Program-made: the position numbers and the translations under genes
Origin: Phycomyces blakesleeanus NRRL 1555(-)
Lineage: Eukaryota > Mucoromycota > Mucoromycetes > Mucorales > Phycomycetaceae
Assembly: GCF_001638985.1 (NCBI RefSeq)
Contig: NW_017265136.1
Span: 2,896,150 to 2,960,149, forward strand
DNA: 64,000 nt
Direction of reading: 5' to 3'
Shown: positions 1,055 to 8,900 of the stretch, piece by piece
Layout: every line of letters begins with the position of its first letter
Numbering within the stretch: position 1 is the first letter of the stretch
Notes under the pieces: generated by a model
What the model saw: only the letters and a program-made list of their open reading frames with translations
Databases searched by the model: none
Told to the model about the DNA's origin: nothing

Positions 1055-1086
1055 CGAAAATCTTAGGGGACAGGGGGTTTTTGGAT

Positions 1087-1208
1087 GATGGGGACAGGGT
1101 GTTACACAAGCTTATAGTGAGTAGTCCGGCAGATAATTAGAGGCGTGACTACTTTTAACTTGTCCGGCAGACATCCATCGTTTCTGTGTGTAACACCCTG
1201 TCCCCATC
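1087..1208. repeat. Subterminal palindrome of the MULE left end
   Basis: A perfect 22-bp inverted pair (1087-1108 and 1187-1208, core GGGGACAGGGTGTTACACA) encloses a 78-bp spacer. The spacer holds a shorter inverted pair built on TCCGGCAGA. Related GGGGACAGGG repeats near the right end suggest subterminal transposase-binding sites. Confidence 0.6.
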
Positions 1209-2204
1209 CAGTATAATCACTTGTCTTTATTCACTAAGAAAAATCATGCAAAAGTGGAAGAACATTTGTCCATAACTTTTCATTTTCTTTTTTTTTTATT
1301 TTTAAAAAATTCATAACTCGTTCAAAAAAATAGATAGAAATATGAGAGTAAGATGGTTGGTTTTGTTGATTTTTTCTGCATAAAGTGAGTATTTGTTTGT
1401 TTTGCAATATTTTTTGAATCACGTTTAATGAGTGAATTACAAAAGTTCTGTACATTTCATTTGTGAAAGATTGAACAAAAAAACAACAATTTGAAAATAT
1501 TAGTAAAAATCACTTGCAAATGCTTTATATCAATAGAAAATAGTAAAAAAACGTTTCAGTAAAAGTTTTAGACCATATTATTATGTAGAAAAGATATTTA
1601 TTAGCAAAAATAATCTATCTCAAATGGTTAAAAACGTGAAAAAAAGTGTATATTTTGCTTGTTTATTCAACCAAAACATAATAAATTAACTTCAAATTTT
1701 GGATATAAAGATGTATGTATTTTTTCAGCAATACGGCAAAATATCCAAGCTTTAGAATTTGAATTAAGACAGAAATCTATCAAAAGCTATGCGTCGTTTC
1801 TGTTTTACATCTTTTATGGTAAAATTCACGTCTGTGATTGGATGAAGATCTTAATCAGATTGCTTATAAACGCACAGACTGTGTACTCCAAAAAATAAAA
1901 GCCAATTATATAGTCTTCCAATTAGTTGGATGCCAATAATATTCGTATCTGGGTTTTACATGTAACATTAAAATTAAAGACAGACTGGGTGCAATTGTGT
2001 TTGTTAAAAAATTAAAGAAAAAAATAGGAGTAAAGTATATTAAAAGATAGAAAGATAGATAAGTTATATATGTGTGAGGTCAATAATATTGGAAGAATTT
2101 ACGGGAGAATTTGTAGGAGAGTTAGTGGCAGTAGTAGTAATTGTAGTAGTAGTAGTGGAGGGTAAAAGATAAGACTTGTTCTTTGGGAACTGACCCCAAT
2201 GATT

Positions 2205-5200
2205 TCAACTTTTGGAAAAGCAGTCAATGATACTCTCTCTACGGATAGCATCAAAATACAGCGTATTTACCTCAGGCCAGGACCGATGTACATGAGGCTT
2301 CACTTTAATTGTTGTCCAGTGGCACCCATGTACATGGTGCAAGACCATTGGCAATGGCTTTCTTTTGAGAGGCTTCCGATCATGGAGGGGAAGGAAAGTT
2401 ACAGGCAAGACGCTCCGATCGTCCGAGTACACACAAACAGGCTTGTTATAGGTGTCAGCTATTATCTGAGCACAGTCTGGTGCAGAGAACCACATAGAGG
2501 AAGGGCAAGATGGGATATTTTCCCCAAGAGCAGGGTCAATCTCGGAGCCAAAGGCAATGACCTCTGTCACTTTGGCAACATCAATGCCAAAGTTGTGCTT
2601 GTAAAGTTTACCATGGGTTGCCATCGTGGCCAACATCTTCTTCTTCACCAAAGGAAACTGATCCTCTCCACCCTCTTTCAGGTGTGCAAATACACGGAAA
2701 CCGCACCAACCATTTGACTTGGGGTTAAACGTCAACGAAATGGCAGCTTGGTCAATTTGAGCAGGCAGAGCAAAGTCATGCACATTTTTGTTTTGTTTTT
2801 TTGGACTAGGCAAATTGTACCAGTAGTCGTCTTGAAGATGTTTAGGTCTTTTAATTCCAGAGAAATATTTTTTAGCTAATAAGAAACAAAAAACAATGTA
2901 ACATTTAGCATTTAATTTTAGTAAAATATCTTATCGGTTACCTTCTTCGAGAGGCTCTTGCTTTTTAGCAAAATTGGTTGTTTTAGCTATAGAGAAAACA
3001 TGCAATGTGTGAGCAAACCATACAAAATATTTTGTGATTCATTTATAAGTTATCAAAAATTACCTTCTTTGAGAGGCTCTTGTTTTTCAGCGAATTGGGT
3101 TTCTTTTTTTATTTCTTTTATGACTAGAAATAGTAAGCATTAGATATTACATTGTAATTTCACAAAAAAAACAATTATAAATTACTTTTTTTGAGAGGCT
3201 CCTCCTCTAAGAACTCCTTCATCACTTCTTTAAGTCCTTCTTTCAAAATACTTCTGATATCATTCTAAAGAAATAAAGAATAAATATGTATTAGATTGTG
3301 AAATCATGTTTGTGTATGTTGCATGCTTACTTTGTTCTTTTGCACAAGGAGATGTCTGTGCTTGTGACGGACAAAGTCCTTTGGGAGAGCAGTTTTTCTT
3401 TTGACGTGCTTAGGTCTTCCGGGAGCTTTGACCTCACTTGACAAAGGAAAGGCAACCTCTCGGTGATCCTTTAAATTACCAGCATTATTTATAAGATCGT
3501 TCACCTTTGCCATCAGGTTACAGATTTGTTGTTCTCCTTCACATCATCTAAACAACTGCTCAAGTTATGCAATTGATTTCATCCACGGAACTTGTTTCTC
3601 AATTGCCACAGTACTTATACTTTCCAATTTTTCTACTTCCTTATTATAGAATGGGAGGGCAGAAGAGAGAACCCATCTTTCAGGAATGTCTGCAAGTGTG
3701 AGGGCCCGATTTCGTGGCAGAGTATGACGGCAAGGGAGACCAAACATAGTCTTTACTCTGCAGTAACAAGCTTCACCAATAATAATCTCTTCAAGAAGTT
3801 CAGCGCGAATCGTGAACAATGCCATTCTGGAAACCGAGTGGACCAATCCACAAAGGCGCTCATCAGCAAGGATTTTTGCATCGGTCACCAACTTCTCATC
3901 CAGTGTACGATCTTGGTAGTCACCCTCAAATTGCAAGAGATATAAGCATATTTGCTCAAACAAGGAGTCCAAAGACTGGAGAGCCAAGATACTCCTTTTC
4001 AGGGCATGATGACCACTCTCAACACGCTGTGTTGTCACACAGTCAAAGTGCTTTAGCTTATTGGTGAGGTAGCCAGCCCACTTCTCTTTGCAGCTCATCT
4101 ACTCCTTCTCAAAGTACTCCTCAAAACTTTTGACTGCACCATTTTTACCATTTTCAGACAGTCCTTCAGTCTTGAGATCTTCACAAGAAGCCAACGATCT
4201 GAAATTTTCTCTTTTCTGCATAAACTTGCCAGCATCATCTTCAAATATCATGCTGTTTATCAAGTTGGTGCACGTATTCCTGTCTTCTTTGCCATCTTGG
4301 CAATGTTATTTATCATGTGCCAACCACAGAGAAGCTTTTTGTTCACGGGGAACTCGGAATCAAGGGCATTCATCAATGCCTTGCACTTGTCTGTAACAAA
4401 GATAGGGCTGTTCTCGATTCCCTCCAACACGATTGATTTCAGTGATCTTGCGAACCAGGCATAGCTTGTCTCTGTCTCATCAGAAACCCACGCAAATGCA
4501 ACAGGAAAGCTCTTCAATCTTTCTCTACCAAGGTTGCTAACACCCTCTACACAGACTAAAGGCATCTTCGCGCAGTTTGTCTTGTAAGTGGCATCAACAA
4601 TAAGAACCTCAGGAAAACGACGGGCTCTTTTTATCATCGTCTCATTTGTAAAGAAAATGTGCGTGAGGCTTTTTCTCTCAATGAATTGATAAAGGACGGA
4701 AAATCCCTTTGCTTCCATAGTTCTTATGAGCCCAGTAGCGCCATGAATTAATGATTCACCACCACGAGAAGAGCTATACTTCAGGTTGTTGATATTGCTA
4801 ATTCTCAGCTTTCTCATTCCCATAACCTTATCTCTTGTAGCTTTCTGAATATTGCGAGTCTTGGCATGGTTTTCTAGCATTGTCTTTGCAATAATTGCAT
4901 CTTCCGAAGTCAGGAGAGACATTCTTCTCTGGTGAGAAGACGCCAAGTTGTTTGGGGTGATGGGGTGGTTATGACAATGCTCATTGTCACTGTGGGCAGG
5001 CAAGGGAAGGTATCTCTGACTCTTATTTTTAAAAGAAAATCTCAATAGGAAGGGGCATCCAGTGAGGGAAGAGTTAGGGGCCTTCTTTCTTTTATCCTCG
5101 CTGATGTTACACTTATCACGATAGGCACCAGCCTTTGAACAAGCAAGGTGAAGTGTTGGAAACTTTCTATCCTTAATTTTGACAGTAAAGTTATTAGAAA

Positions 5201-5321
5201 GGGCGTACTCGTTTACGGCCTCCAAAATGCTTTGTTTGTCAGGATAACCATTCTCGGGGAATGAGAGAGTTGTTTTAAGCGAGTACATCTTCTCAATAGG
5301 GGTATTGAAGTTGGTGTTCAT
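2205..5321 (-). pseudogene. MULE transposase - SWIM - GRP motif - OTU cysteine peptidase fusion
   Basis: Exons read on minus are 5321-3331, 3264-3186, 3123-3064, 2986-2942 and 2875-2205. All four introns (62-78 bp) have GT..AG ends, and the phases join in frame. The N-terminus resembles a FAR1/WRKY-GCM1-like zinc region. The DDE core has VDATYKTN (first Asp), VTDKCKALMNAL (second Asp), LLCGWHM, and RVESGHHALK (Glu). A SWIM zinc finger follows (CYCR..GLPCRH). Next come a GRP AT-hook-like motif, a Lys/Glu hinge repeated over three small exons, and an OTU-like domain with the Cys box NGWCGFRV and the His box GCHWT. The frame is damaged: a 1-nt shift near 4265-4290, TAG at 4098-4100, TAA at 3565-3567 and a TGA near 3530. 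MULE transposases excise and reinsert the element. The OTU part would be a deubiquitinase-like peptidase if active. Confidence 0.8.
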
Positions 5322-5372
5322 ATTTAATAAAAGAGCACTGTAGTTATATAAGTATTTTTATTGATTCATGTA

Positions 5373-5417
5373 CGCAATGTACGCAATGTATGCAATGTAT
5401 GCAATGTATGCAATGTA
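5373..5417. repeat. Five 9-bp tandem repeats upstream of the MULE gene
   Basis: Unit YGCAATGTA is repeated five times, about 50 bp upstream of the transposase ATG at 5321. It may be a simple slippage array or a set of promoter-proximal binding sites. Confidence 0.6.
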
Positions 5418-5700
5418 CATAACGTAAAAAAGGCATCATATCTTGTTATTTGGAAATATTATTTTTTATTCTTACAACTAAATGTTAATGACTTTAAGAA
5501 AGGGGGTGTTTGTATTTTTCCCGGGAAATAGGAATGATCTAAAGATGGGGACAGGGGTGTGCTTATAAATGATGGGGACAAGGGTGTGCTTATAAAGAAT
5601 GGGGACGGGGGGTTCTTCAAGACACTTTATAGCCAGGCCTCAGACTTGCAGTCACCTTAAATTGTGTGGTGCCGTTACCCCCTGTCCCCTAAGATCGCTG

Positions 5701-5709
5701 TAAAATGAA
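5701..5709. repeat. 9-bp target-site duplication of the MULE, right copy
   Basis: TAAAATGAA matches 1046-1054 exactly. Confidence 0.85.
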
Positions 5710-5915
5710 AGGGGGAAAGTTGGTCGAAAAAAATGAGTAGAAAGTAATTTAAAAACAAACTTTCAAAATTCTTTTAAAAAAAATTATTAAGACAATTAGC
5801 ATACTTGTAATTCTCACTACCAATGTGCCAATATAATGAAAAAATATTCTCATTTCTTGAACATTTTTCGCAACCTTACACCCCTACTTCCTTTAATATA
5901 CAAACATAAGCCAAA

Positions 5916-8900
5916 ATGAATATCAAAGATTTACTTAATCATAATTCCAAAACCAGAACAGATGGTCATATGCTTAATGATTTGTTTGTTGTAGAACACT
6001 CAAACCGAATTGAAATCTGTATTATTGCTCAAGCACGCAGAAAATTTAACAACAGAAACAAGGGCTCTATTACTGCCCCTATAGATTTTGCCAAGTTCTT
6101 GGCTGCAGGCAATAAAACAACACCAAGGTAGAAAGTATGGATACCGATGATATTCAAGTCGAGTCTGTTGAGGAAATCAACGAAAACATTGACTATATGT
6201 CTGGTAAGAAATAAACAAGTAAAAAGAAACATTAGTATTAAATATAATTGTATTCAACTTTAAAAAAAATATATCAGATAATGACTATAGACATTTGCGT
6301 GTCCGTAATCTAGACAGAGTGTACAATGTTCCAGTAGAACATTTCACTGATTATGAAAATCTTGTTCCCACATGCGTGTCCAACAGTCGTGCACAGACTG
6401 TCAGTCTGGAGTGGTTTTCCATGTTTTTTTGAGAACAATGTCTCTCGTGAAGTCTATGACAAATGCATAAAAATTGTTAATAAGTACATGGCAGAACTTG
6501 GATCCAGTAAGTTTATAATTAGTATACTCTTTTTATATTACATGCACTTACCACCATTTTAGCTAAAGTGGATTTACTTCTATCATACTACAAGGTAGAC
6601 ATCTTGTTGAAGGAGTAGTACCAGATGAAGTCCGTTGCATACAATATGTGCATAGATGGATGCTGCAGGTTCTCAACAGTTGAAGAAAGAGATTTCATCA
6701 GTGAGGACAGGTACAAAGTGGAAAAAGCAAGTGCAAAGACTACACAGACCTTCTGGATTGTGCCTCTCTCAGAGCAACTGAGATTCAAGCTTGCCCACCC
6801 TGAGAAAAGGGCAAAGATAGCCTATGATACAAGGTGTTTGGCTGATAGATGCGAAGATAGATATGAAAACATCTTCAGTAGAGATGCAGTCAGATGGCTA
6901 CTTGATTGTGGAGTGGTTGGTCAGAATGACGTTTTGGTGACTATGTTTATTGACTAGTTCAACACATTTAAAAATATCAAAAGGACATCTTCTGTTATTC
7001 ATATTATTAACCTGAATATCGATTCTAAAGAAAGGTATTTAAAAAAAATAATTTAGATAAAGTTACTAATAAGAAATACTTAGATACAAGGTAGGTAACA
7101 TGATACAGTTGGCTATCATATTAAGACCCAACCATTCAAAAGATATCACTTCGTTTTTGGAGCCTGTTCTTGATGACCTGAGAAACTTGGGGGCAAATGG
7201 CCTGCAGTTCCAGACTGATTCTGAACCAGTGATTGCCTAGGTTCATCTTGTCATAGTGACTGGAAATACTCCAGCCGTCTCTGACTTGATGAACCTGGCT
7301 CATCATAACGCCCACCATAGATGCAGAGCTTGCGTCTTGTACGGTGCAGGAGATCCAAGCATGACTTGCATAGTAGAAAGAGACGGACCATCACTGTTGG
7401 GAACAGAAGAAAGTCTATACCAGTCTATTGAAGACATAAGTTGTAAACTGTTTAACAAAATAAATATTGATACCATTTTAGATGTACGGCGTCAAAGGGC
7501 CCAACATCTTCAAGGACTTGCCCACAATGATCAATATTGCTTTCTTTGGACTGGGTGAGATTCACCTTCTGGGTCACAGTACAGGCCAGCAGCTTTACGT
7601 TGCACTTGGAGGAAAGTTTTGTCCTTGGGCCAGCAACAGTGGCAGAAGCGCACATGGCATTCATTTGCAAGATTGGTTAAAGCACCACAGGTACCCATTT
7701 GCTCTGGATATCAGCCTAGAAGATATTGACAAAGCAATTTGCACATCCAGAACCAATATACCAGCCGATTTTACAGGAACGTAGAGACTCTTGAAGGAAT
7801 CCAATGGCAAAAGGAAAGCTATCAATTGAATAGACTTCTTCTTGTTTGTTGTTCCAATGATCATTGTCGATCATTTCGTTTTTGATCGTATGAAAGCAGC
7901 AGTGATGAGCCTTGTTACTGCATGCAAAATCGTTCAGCAGTAGAGCATCACTGCTGCCAATATCAAAAAAGCAGAGGAGTAAGTCAATTGAATATATGTT
8001 GATCAGTGTTTTAATCATCTTTATAGAGCCATTGGTTGCTGGCATGTTTTCCTCAATTGTGAGATCGTAGAAAAGAGGCTGAAGCCTACAATTTTTGTGA
8101 TGAACCAGCATATGCTGATTCATCTCGGCTATATGATATGGGAAATGGACCCTCTATGGGCATACAGTTGTAGGCCACTTGAACGGGCAATCAGTGTCTA
8201 CAGTGCGGCCATCAAGTTGAGAAAAAAACCGGGAAAGAACATGGAGAATCTCTTACTCAGAAAGGCCGCAATCAATCACTATCTTGGTTGCCAATTTTTC
8301 ATTTGCACCACAAATGACAGAAGGGCTAGCAACTTTGAGGTTGCAAGTAATGATGTTGCTGGTCCTCAACTTTGGTTCAGGCCAACTCAAAGCTCTCTGG
8401 TTGAGCTGGCTGCCACCATTGGCATAGAGTGCCAGAACTTGGTCCGCAGTTTGATACCTTTCTGGGCAAGAGAAGGCGCTGTTTCCATTGAGGAAAATGA
8501 TGAAGTGGTTTGCATCAACAAGATGTGGAAAGTCTCAGTAGTCTATAGAGTTCTGTTCTCTGTTGACAGCAGGCATGGTCGAGCAAACAATCTTGCTGTG
8601 CTTGAAGATGCCAGGGAGTAAGTAGCACTAATTGTATTCTACATTGTTAAATTTTATTAATCATAACTCATTTATATTTTTTGAAAGATATGGTTTTATT
8701 TTTAAATTCTTTTCCCAAACCGTCAACAGAGTGACCAGACTCTTTGTGGCCATTGACTGTATTTCTGATGTTCAATGCGTGAACCAGGGTCTTTTCTCTG
8801 CGTGGGATAGTCTAGACTCTGGTGTGGTAAAGGTGTTGGACATGAAGTTCATTATGGGAATTGCTGGCCTCGGTCATGACACAAACAATGAGACCATGCA

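Follow-up and report, generated by a model that had tools for sequence, protein, structure and literature searches.

The MULE insertion and its gene

The 64,000-nucleotide stretch of the Phycomyces blakesleeanus NRRL 1555(-) genome analysed here (the window; contig NW_017265136.1, positions 2,896,150 to 2,960,149) contains a complete insertion of a Mutator-like element (MULE). The insertion occupies positions 1055–5700 (4646 bp), is bounded by target-site duplications (TSDs) and carries its gene on the minus strand. This gene consists of a MULE transposase exon, a chain of short exons and an exon encoding a domain of the ovarian tumour (OTU) type. The preliminary description of the locus, which delimited it as 2205–5321, had missed the ends of the element. 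The features are listed below.

1046–1054, no strand: TSD at the 3′ side of the gene; identical 9-mer at both ends (TAAAATGAA on the plus strand)
5701–5709, no strand: TSD at the 5′ side of the gene; identical 9-mer at both ends
1055–5700, minus: whole MULE insertion, 4646 bp, bounded by the TSDs
5677–5695, minus: core of the terminal inverted repeat (TIR) at the 5′ side of the gene; 19 bp identical
1060–1078, plus: TIR core at the 3′ side of the gene; 19 bp identical
3331–5321, minus: exon 1, with the MULE transposase, SWIM pattern and GRP motif; broken in the window copy
4263–5321, minus: open stretch at the start of the transposase frame; 353 aa, including PF10551 (residues 239–339)
3265–3330, minus: intron 1, GT..AG, 66 nt, phase 0 (phase taken from the same join in copy L041)
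3186–3264, minus: exon 2, 79 nt, with the C-terminal end ..FLEEEPLKK
3124–3185, minus: intron 2, GT..AG, 62 nt, phase 1
3064–3123, minus: mini-exon 3, 60 nt, IKKET..EKQEPL unit
2987–3063, minus: intron 3, GT..AG, 77 nt, phase 1
2942–2986, minus: mini-exon 4, 45 nt, AKKQEPL unit
2876–2941, minus: intron 4, GT..AG, 66 nt, phase 1
2205–2875, minus: exon 5 of the window copy, with the OTU domain (Cys box NGWCGFR, His box HGCHWTT) and a premature TAG at 2207–2205
2064–2204, minus: remainder of exon 5 in other copies, ending in ..NIIDLTHI and a stop; lost in the window copy

The MULE transposase domain (PF10551) scores 69.9 bits in the window copy, 69.4 in L041 and 74.9 in the family-2 copy L043, with a cut-off of 27.6. 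Downstream of it on the minus strand of the window are a C-x-C...C-x-H SWIM pattern and then the GRP motif, as the preliminary description had read them. TSDs were sought in the window copy, L041, L042 and L043: the family-1 copy L042 has a perfect 11-bp duplication, L041 gave T-rich near-matches only, and none was found for L043. TIRs of 44 bp (95% identity) are present in L043 and of 36–46 bp (87–92%) in L041 and L042; no TIR pair spanning L044 was found.

The transposase–OTU frame and its copies

Autonomous copies of the family very probably encode one spliced transposase–OTU protein of about 1000 residues, to judge by their reading frames. Starting 29 codons before the end of exon 1, the spliced frame runs open through the whole OTU domain in 10 of the 30 family-1 copies compared; each of the other 20 has a stop or frameshift within this stretch, and the unspliced frame hits a stop in all 30. 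GT..AG borders were found at introns 1, 2, 3 and 4 in 27, 28, 17 and 29 copies, respectively. The public gene model P0002 (six member sequences), which starts inside the transposase and misses most of the MULE core, has the same four joins between the exon with the GRP motif and that with the OTU domain. Joining the exons gives predicted proteins of 1007 residues in L041 and L042 and of 1000 residues in L043; the transposase frame reaches 685–695 aa in three of the 10 open copies (L041, L042 and L020). A third-family copy, L064, has the GRP motif and OTU domain in one 344-aa open frame, where no splicing is needed. The four GT..AG introns proposed in the preliminary description are thus supported by P0002 and by the open copies, and its claim of one covalent protein is well supported by the DNA at the level of the family, L064 included, but not for the window copy, where the transposase is broken and the OTU domain cut early.

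The two domains are linked throughout the genome. A MULE match lies 1.2–2.7 kb upstream on the same strand in 102 of the 112 OTU matches that were typed (out of 135, short pieces and split exons being left out) and is missing in 10; conversely, an OTU match lies downstream of 103 of the 150 MULE matches listed, out of 166. For the other 47 listed MULE matches, the 4 kb downstream contain no typed OTU match; OTU-free MULE families therefore seem to share the genome, and these matches presumably belong to them.

A wholly separate OTU gene was considered and rejected, given that exon 5 of the window has no ATG before the catalytic Cys and that the spliced frame is open in a third of the copies. 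An internal start at a Met codon in exon 2 is, however, possible. Variation among family-1 copies, counted in 21 of the 30 (eight copies without one mini-exon and L039 were left out, frameshifted copies included), is 1.4% in introns and 3.8–4.2% at third exon positions, contrary to simple expectation. Perhaps the AT-rich introns hold few CpG sites, so that CpG decay falls on the exons, although this is a guess.

The C-terminal domain very probably has an OTU fold, according to model-based comparisons: a multi-family profile search matched OTUD5 (E 3.7e-5), a Foldseek search gave E 6.2e-6, and in both searches the nearest solved relatives are OTU deubiquitinases. OTU homology, as given in the preliminary description, is supported by both. 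The catalytic Cys and His, in the two boxes pointed out there, are conserved throughout the 15 aligned sequences and the 10 open family-1 copies; the Cys is altered in the degenerate copies L034, L035 and L060. The Asp three residues before the Cys is present in eight of the 10 open copies and is replaced by Asn in L018, L026 and the window copy, whose DGWC box reads NGWC; DGxC is intact in the family-2 and family-3 sequences of the 15-sequence alignment. OTU identity to the window copy is about 41% for family 2 and about 27% for family 3. The ratio of nonsynonymous to synonymous divergence (dN/dS) in the OTU domain is 0.15–0.21 for pairs with moderate dS, which fits a working domain. Overall, the domain is probably an active deubiquitinase.

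The linker between the two domains consists of short exons set between phase-1 introns, each with a terminal K-x-E-P-L unit. Family-2 mini-exons are 54-nt units, for example DATKNKIKQIKKEPLDP and DATKNKTKKIKQEPLDP, and include IK[KQ]E. One mini-exon unit is absent in 8 of the 30 family-1 copies; as both borders of a unit are in phase 1, the reading frame would survive such a loss. The protein ends in IIDLTHI in family 1 and in HVDLTIT, PIDLTPK, PIDLTIK or PIDLSIK in family 2. For these motifs, 17 family-2 loci and five family-3 loci were read. In any frame, an [IV]DLT tail is found in 28 of the 30 family-1 copies and 16 of the 17 family-2 loci (L049 scored as not found, L051, with DLS, scored by eye), and it is in frame in all 10 open family-1 copies; the two families share it despite an OTU identity of only about 41%. 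The sequence IKxE (psi-K-x-E) is the acceptor consensus of the small ubiquitin-like modifier SUMO, and [PILV][IV]DLT is one type of SUMO-interacting motif. The K-x-E-P-L units are assumed here to resemble SUMO sites and the [IV]DLT tail a SUMO-interacting motif.

The window copy itself is evidently dead, with intact copies elsewhere in the genome. Its transposase has lost 19 nt near 4287, which shifts the frame, and is further interrupted by in-frame stops at 4101–4099, 3567–3565 and 3546–3544; the stop at 2207–2205 in its OTU exon, ahead of the end common to other copies (2064), is shared with L012. This copy is also a mosaic of a subfamily B transposase and a subfamily A linker and OTU domain, with B-type sequence in exon 1 down to about 3450 and a break near the GRP segment. 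Positions 4551–3352 have 92–99% identity to the subfamily B copies L020, L031 and L032 and 58–85% to L041 of subfamily A, whereas from 3351 on identity is 96–99% to L041 and 75–95% to the B copies L031 and L032. Between the window copy and L041, synonymous divergence (dS) reaches 1.19 across the compared part of the transposase but only 0.06 in the OTU domain. This contrast and the switch in identity show that transposase lineages have exchanged their OTU modules. In L020, another mosaic, a B transposase and the beginning of a B linker are combined with an A-like OTU domain, and the break lies at a different point.

L031 and the window copy, at different places in the genome, share two identical transposase stop codons, as if a copy with a dead transposase had been moved by the enzyme of another copy, or recombination had taken place. 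Between the end of exon 1 and that of the OTU domain, C-to-T and G-to-A changes are about 4–5 times commoner at CpG sites than at other positions. Counted in 29 of the 30 family-1 copies, this decay amounts to 18–19% at CpG against about 4–5% elsewhere (C to T, 18.1% against 3.8%), which fits host methylation of the copies.

Possible roles of the OTU domain

The proposed protein would comprise, in order, a putative zinc-binding N-terminus, the MULE DDE core, the SWIM finger, a basic GRP segment, the mini-exon linker, the OTU domain and, in families 1 and 2, a C-terminal [IV]-D-L-T tail. Most likely, the OTU domain strips ubiquitin around the transposase. Tied to the transposase as a functional deubiquitinase, it would clear ubiquitin from that enzyme and from neighbouring proteins on the element, and so spare the transposase degradation by the proteasome. 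Its SUMO-like linker and tail may recruit the protein to SUMO-modified chromatin or to sites of repair, on which SUMO-targeted ubiquitin ligases (STUbLs) would act. Taken as a whole, a spliced fusion with a deubiquitinase tail that protects the transposase, and with SUMO-like parts that steer it, is a moderately favoured explanation of the sequences. Protection from the proteasome is the first choice of function, with anti-silencing on chromatin the second. Of its parts, protection of the transposase as the main role is proposed tentatively, and guidance by SUMO through the linker and tail is rather doubtful.

Several observations weigh against this explanation. Public gene models may be pure prediction, and none of those inspected combines the MULE core with the OTU domain: P0002 and P0004–P0011 start downstream of the core or within it, and P0001 bypasses it. 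The donor of intron 1 is GC in L020, which is one of the 10 open copies. Families 1 and 2 have no Pfam OTU match at E≤10, and the OTU domain is below the cut-off in every sequence scanned; PF02338 gave no match for the window, L041, L043, L061, P0001 and P0002, and L044 reached 14.5 bits with a cut-off of 23.3. A genome search with PF02338 found two loci, neither of them the window, and the window OTU domain alone matched nothing convincing among Pfam and PDB sequences. The domain is accordingly named OTU-like by fold and profile and not as a member of the Pfam OTU family. The third catalytic residue of OTU enzymes is an Asp three residues before the Cys or, usually, an Asp or Asn two residues after the His; in families 1 and 2 the latter position is Thr, and two of the 10 open copies carry Asn in place of the Asp that precedes the Cys, while the DGWC box is altered in two more. 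OTU dN/dS rises to 0.39–0.45 in closer pairs, on few changes, and the predicted structure has a pLDDT (predicted local distance difference test) score of only 67.6. As for the SUMO-like motifs, the K-x-E of the EPL units in family 1 is preceded by E or K and not by a hydrophobic residue, so that only the IKKET site of that family matches the consensus, and a linker rich in lysine and glutamate can contain such motifs by chance. Neither K-x-E-P-L exons nor the DLT tail were seen in the five family-3 loci read, so that neither is required in all fusions of this type.

One alternative is that the gene has two products: retention of intron 1 would yield the transposase alone and full splicing a smaller amount of the fusion, so that splicing would set the level of the deubiquitinase–transposase. 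In 18 of the 30 family-1 copies the unspliced frame does pass the end of exon 1 and stop 8 codons into intron 1, and alternative splicing of a fungal MULE, in Yarrowia, is the subject of a title in the reference list of PMC6446971. This arrangement is nevertheless unlikely, given the GT..AG borders at introns 1, 2 and 4 in nearly all copies (27, 28 and 29 of 30); moreover, in L064 the intron region is open, and retention would still yield a fusion.

It is similarly improbable that the OTU domain is not a deubiquitinase, and either has SUMO or some other ubiquitin-like protein as its substrate or serves, having lost its activity, as a binding domain by which the transposase docks on modified chromatin. 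SUMO-like motifs flank the domain on both sides, no acidic residue stands two positions after the His, and several family-1 copies, including the window copy, L012, L018 and L026, have Asn instead of Asp three positions before the Cys. Such a role agrees less well with the presence of the catalytic Cys and His in all 15 aligned sequences and all 10 open copies, with DGxC kept in the aligned sequences of families 2 and 3, with the low dN/dS and with the kinship to OTU deubiquitinases of solved structure.

A narrower version of the favoured explanation is a SUMO-guided deubiquitinase–transposase, in which each separately spliced mini-exon contributes one SUMO-acceptor-like unit, the C-terminus reads SUMO and the OTU domain between them removes ubiquitin. 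The ubiquitin removed would be that placed by SUMO-targeted ligases on the transposase or on repair proteins at the element, and gain or loss of symmetric mini-exons and exchange of OTU modules would tune the system. In this complete form it is quite unlikely.

The OTU domain might instead work on chromatin, deubiquitinating histones or silencing factors near the element; this anti-silencing role would be comparable to that of VANC of the plant VANDAL elements, described as an anti-silencing protein of MULEs (PMC6446971). The CpG-centred decay is as expected under host methylation. The target, however, is only hypothetical, and fusion to a DNA-binding transposase suits protection of the transposase equally; a chromatin role, the second candidate, is unlikely. 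Very improbable is a functionless OTU domain captured as passenger DNA, as in Pack-MULEs: gene pieces are carried by plant MULEs (PMC6431247) and the tested stretch is interrupted by a stop or frameshift in two thirds of the family-1 copies, but the arrangement is kept in three families with widely diverged OTU domains, dN/dS is well below 1 and the same order and strand recur in 102 of 112 typed matches, and the idea is set aside on account of that dN/dS and linkage.

Related elements and neighbouring frames

Transposase–OTU fusions as such are already known, from Ginger1 and MuDR-6_HM, and the role of ubiquitin in transposition suggested in the preliminary description is not a new idea either (PMC2836005). 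A group similar in host is MULE-Mucorales (group 5; Dupeyron et al. 2019, PMC6446971), with a 10-bp TSD, a 40-bp TIR, one open reading frame (ORF) and SWIM. The elements described here likewise have a Mucoromycota host, one ORF and SWIM, with TSDs of 9–11 bp (window, L042) and TIRs of 36–46 bp (L041–L043). In that listing, compared by TSD, TIR, SWIM and ORF number, MULE-Mucorales has no other motif, unlike the OTU-carrying elements here; the OTU domain may be missing from it because it falls below the Pfam cut-off. MuDR-6_HM (group 14, Cnidaria; PMC6446971), where HM is taken as hydra from the naming in PMC2836005, is a one-ORF MULE listed with an Ovarian Tumour motif, as here; its table entry, the only basis of comparison, differs in listing neither a TIR nor a Zn finger.

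In Ginger1 (Bao et al. 2010, PMC2836005), too, a single protein, often encoded with introns, joins a DDE transposase to an OTU or Ulp1 protease domain at its C-terminus. Its transposase, however, is Gypsy-integrase-like, with GPY/F, and not a MULE transposase (PF10551) with SWIM; Pfam scans of the present sequences gave MULE and ZSWIM RNaseH-like families and no integrase family at E≤10. Ulp1-carrying MULEs of plants and animals (PMC2836005) are similar in joining a MULE to a ubiquitin-like-protein protease, but that protease is Ulp1 and not OTU; Ulp1 (PF02902) had no match at E≤10 in L041, L043, P0001 and P0002. Helentrons with OTU or VTD domains (PMC9741609, PMC6431247) are a further case of transposon proteins with a deubiquitinase-type domain, although the protein is there a rolling-circle RepHel and not a DDE transposase. 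According to PMC9741609, VTD domains of transposons cleave ubiquitin, and viral and transposon OTU domains are untested for activity. The suggestion that ubiquitin or SUMO plays a part in transposition, through the OTU and Ulp1 domains at transposase C-termini, was made by Bao et al. (2010, PMC2836005).

What is new is the phase-1 mini-exon linker with its K-x-E-P-L units and the [IV]DLT tail, kept between families 1 and 2; these features and the mosaic origin of the window copy had escaped the preliminary description. Neither a fungal MULE–OTU fusion nor SUMO motifs in a transposase–OTU protein are named among the titles and beginnings of abstracts listed from the open-licence literature. Protein searches, whose reach is limited to relatives sharing short exact words, gave 1, 2 and 9 matches, all from Phycomyces, and for this reason carry no implication about absence outside Phycomyces. 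MULE–OTU proteins may also exist in plants.

If the proposal is true, a known laboratory fungus harbours a MULE whose OTU-linked copies number about 100, many being broken. With the deubiquitinase built into the transposase itself, the roles of ubiquitin and SUMO in transposition would become directly testable there; the natural copies vary in mini-exon number and in swapped OTU modules. Standard family models can miss OTU domains of this kind, so such fusions may be undercounted.

Broken open frames of what seems to be another repeated element, with no credible Pfam family for the pieces scanned, adjoin two of the MULE–OTU copies: they lie at 5900–8700 of the window, on the plus strand, and upstream of the MULE in L044.
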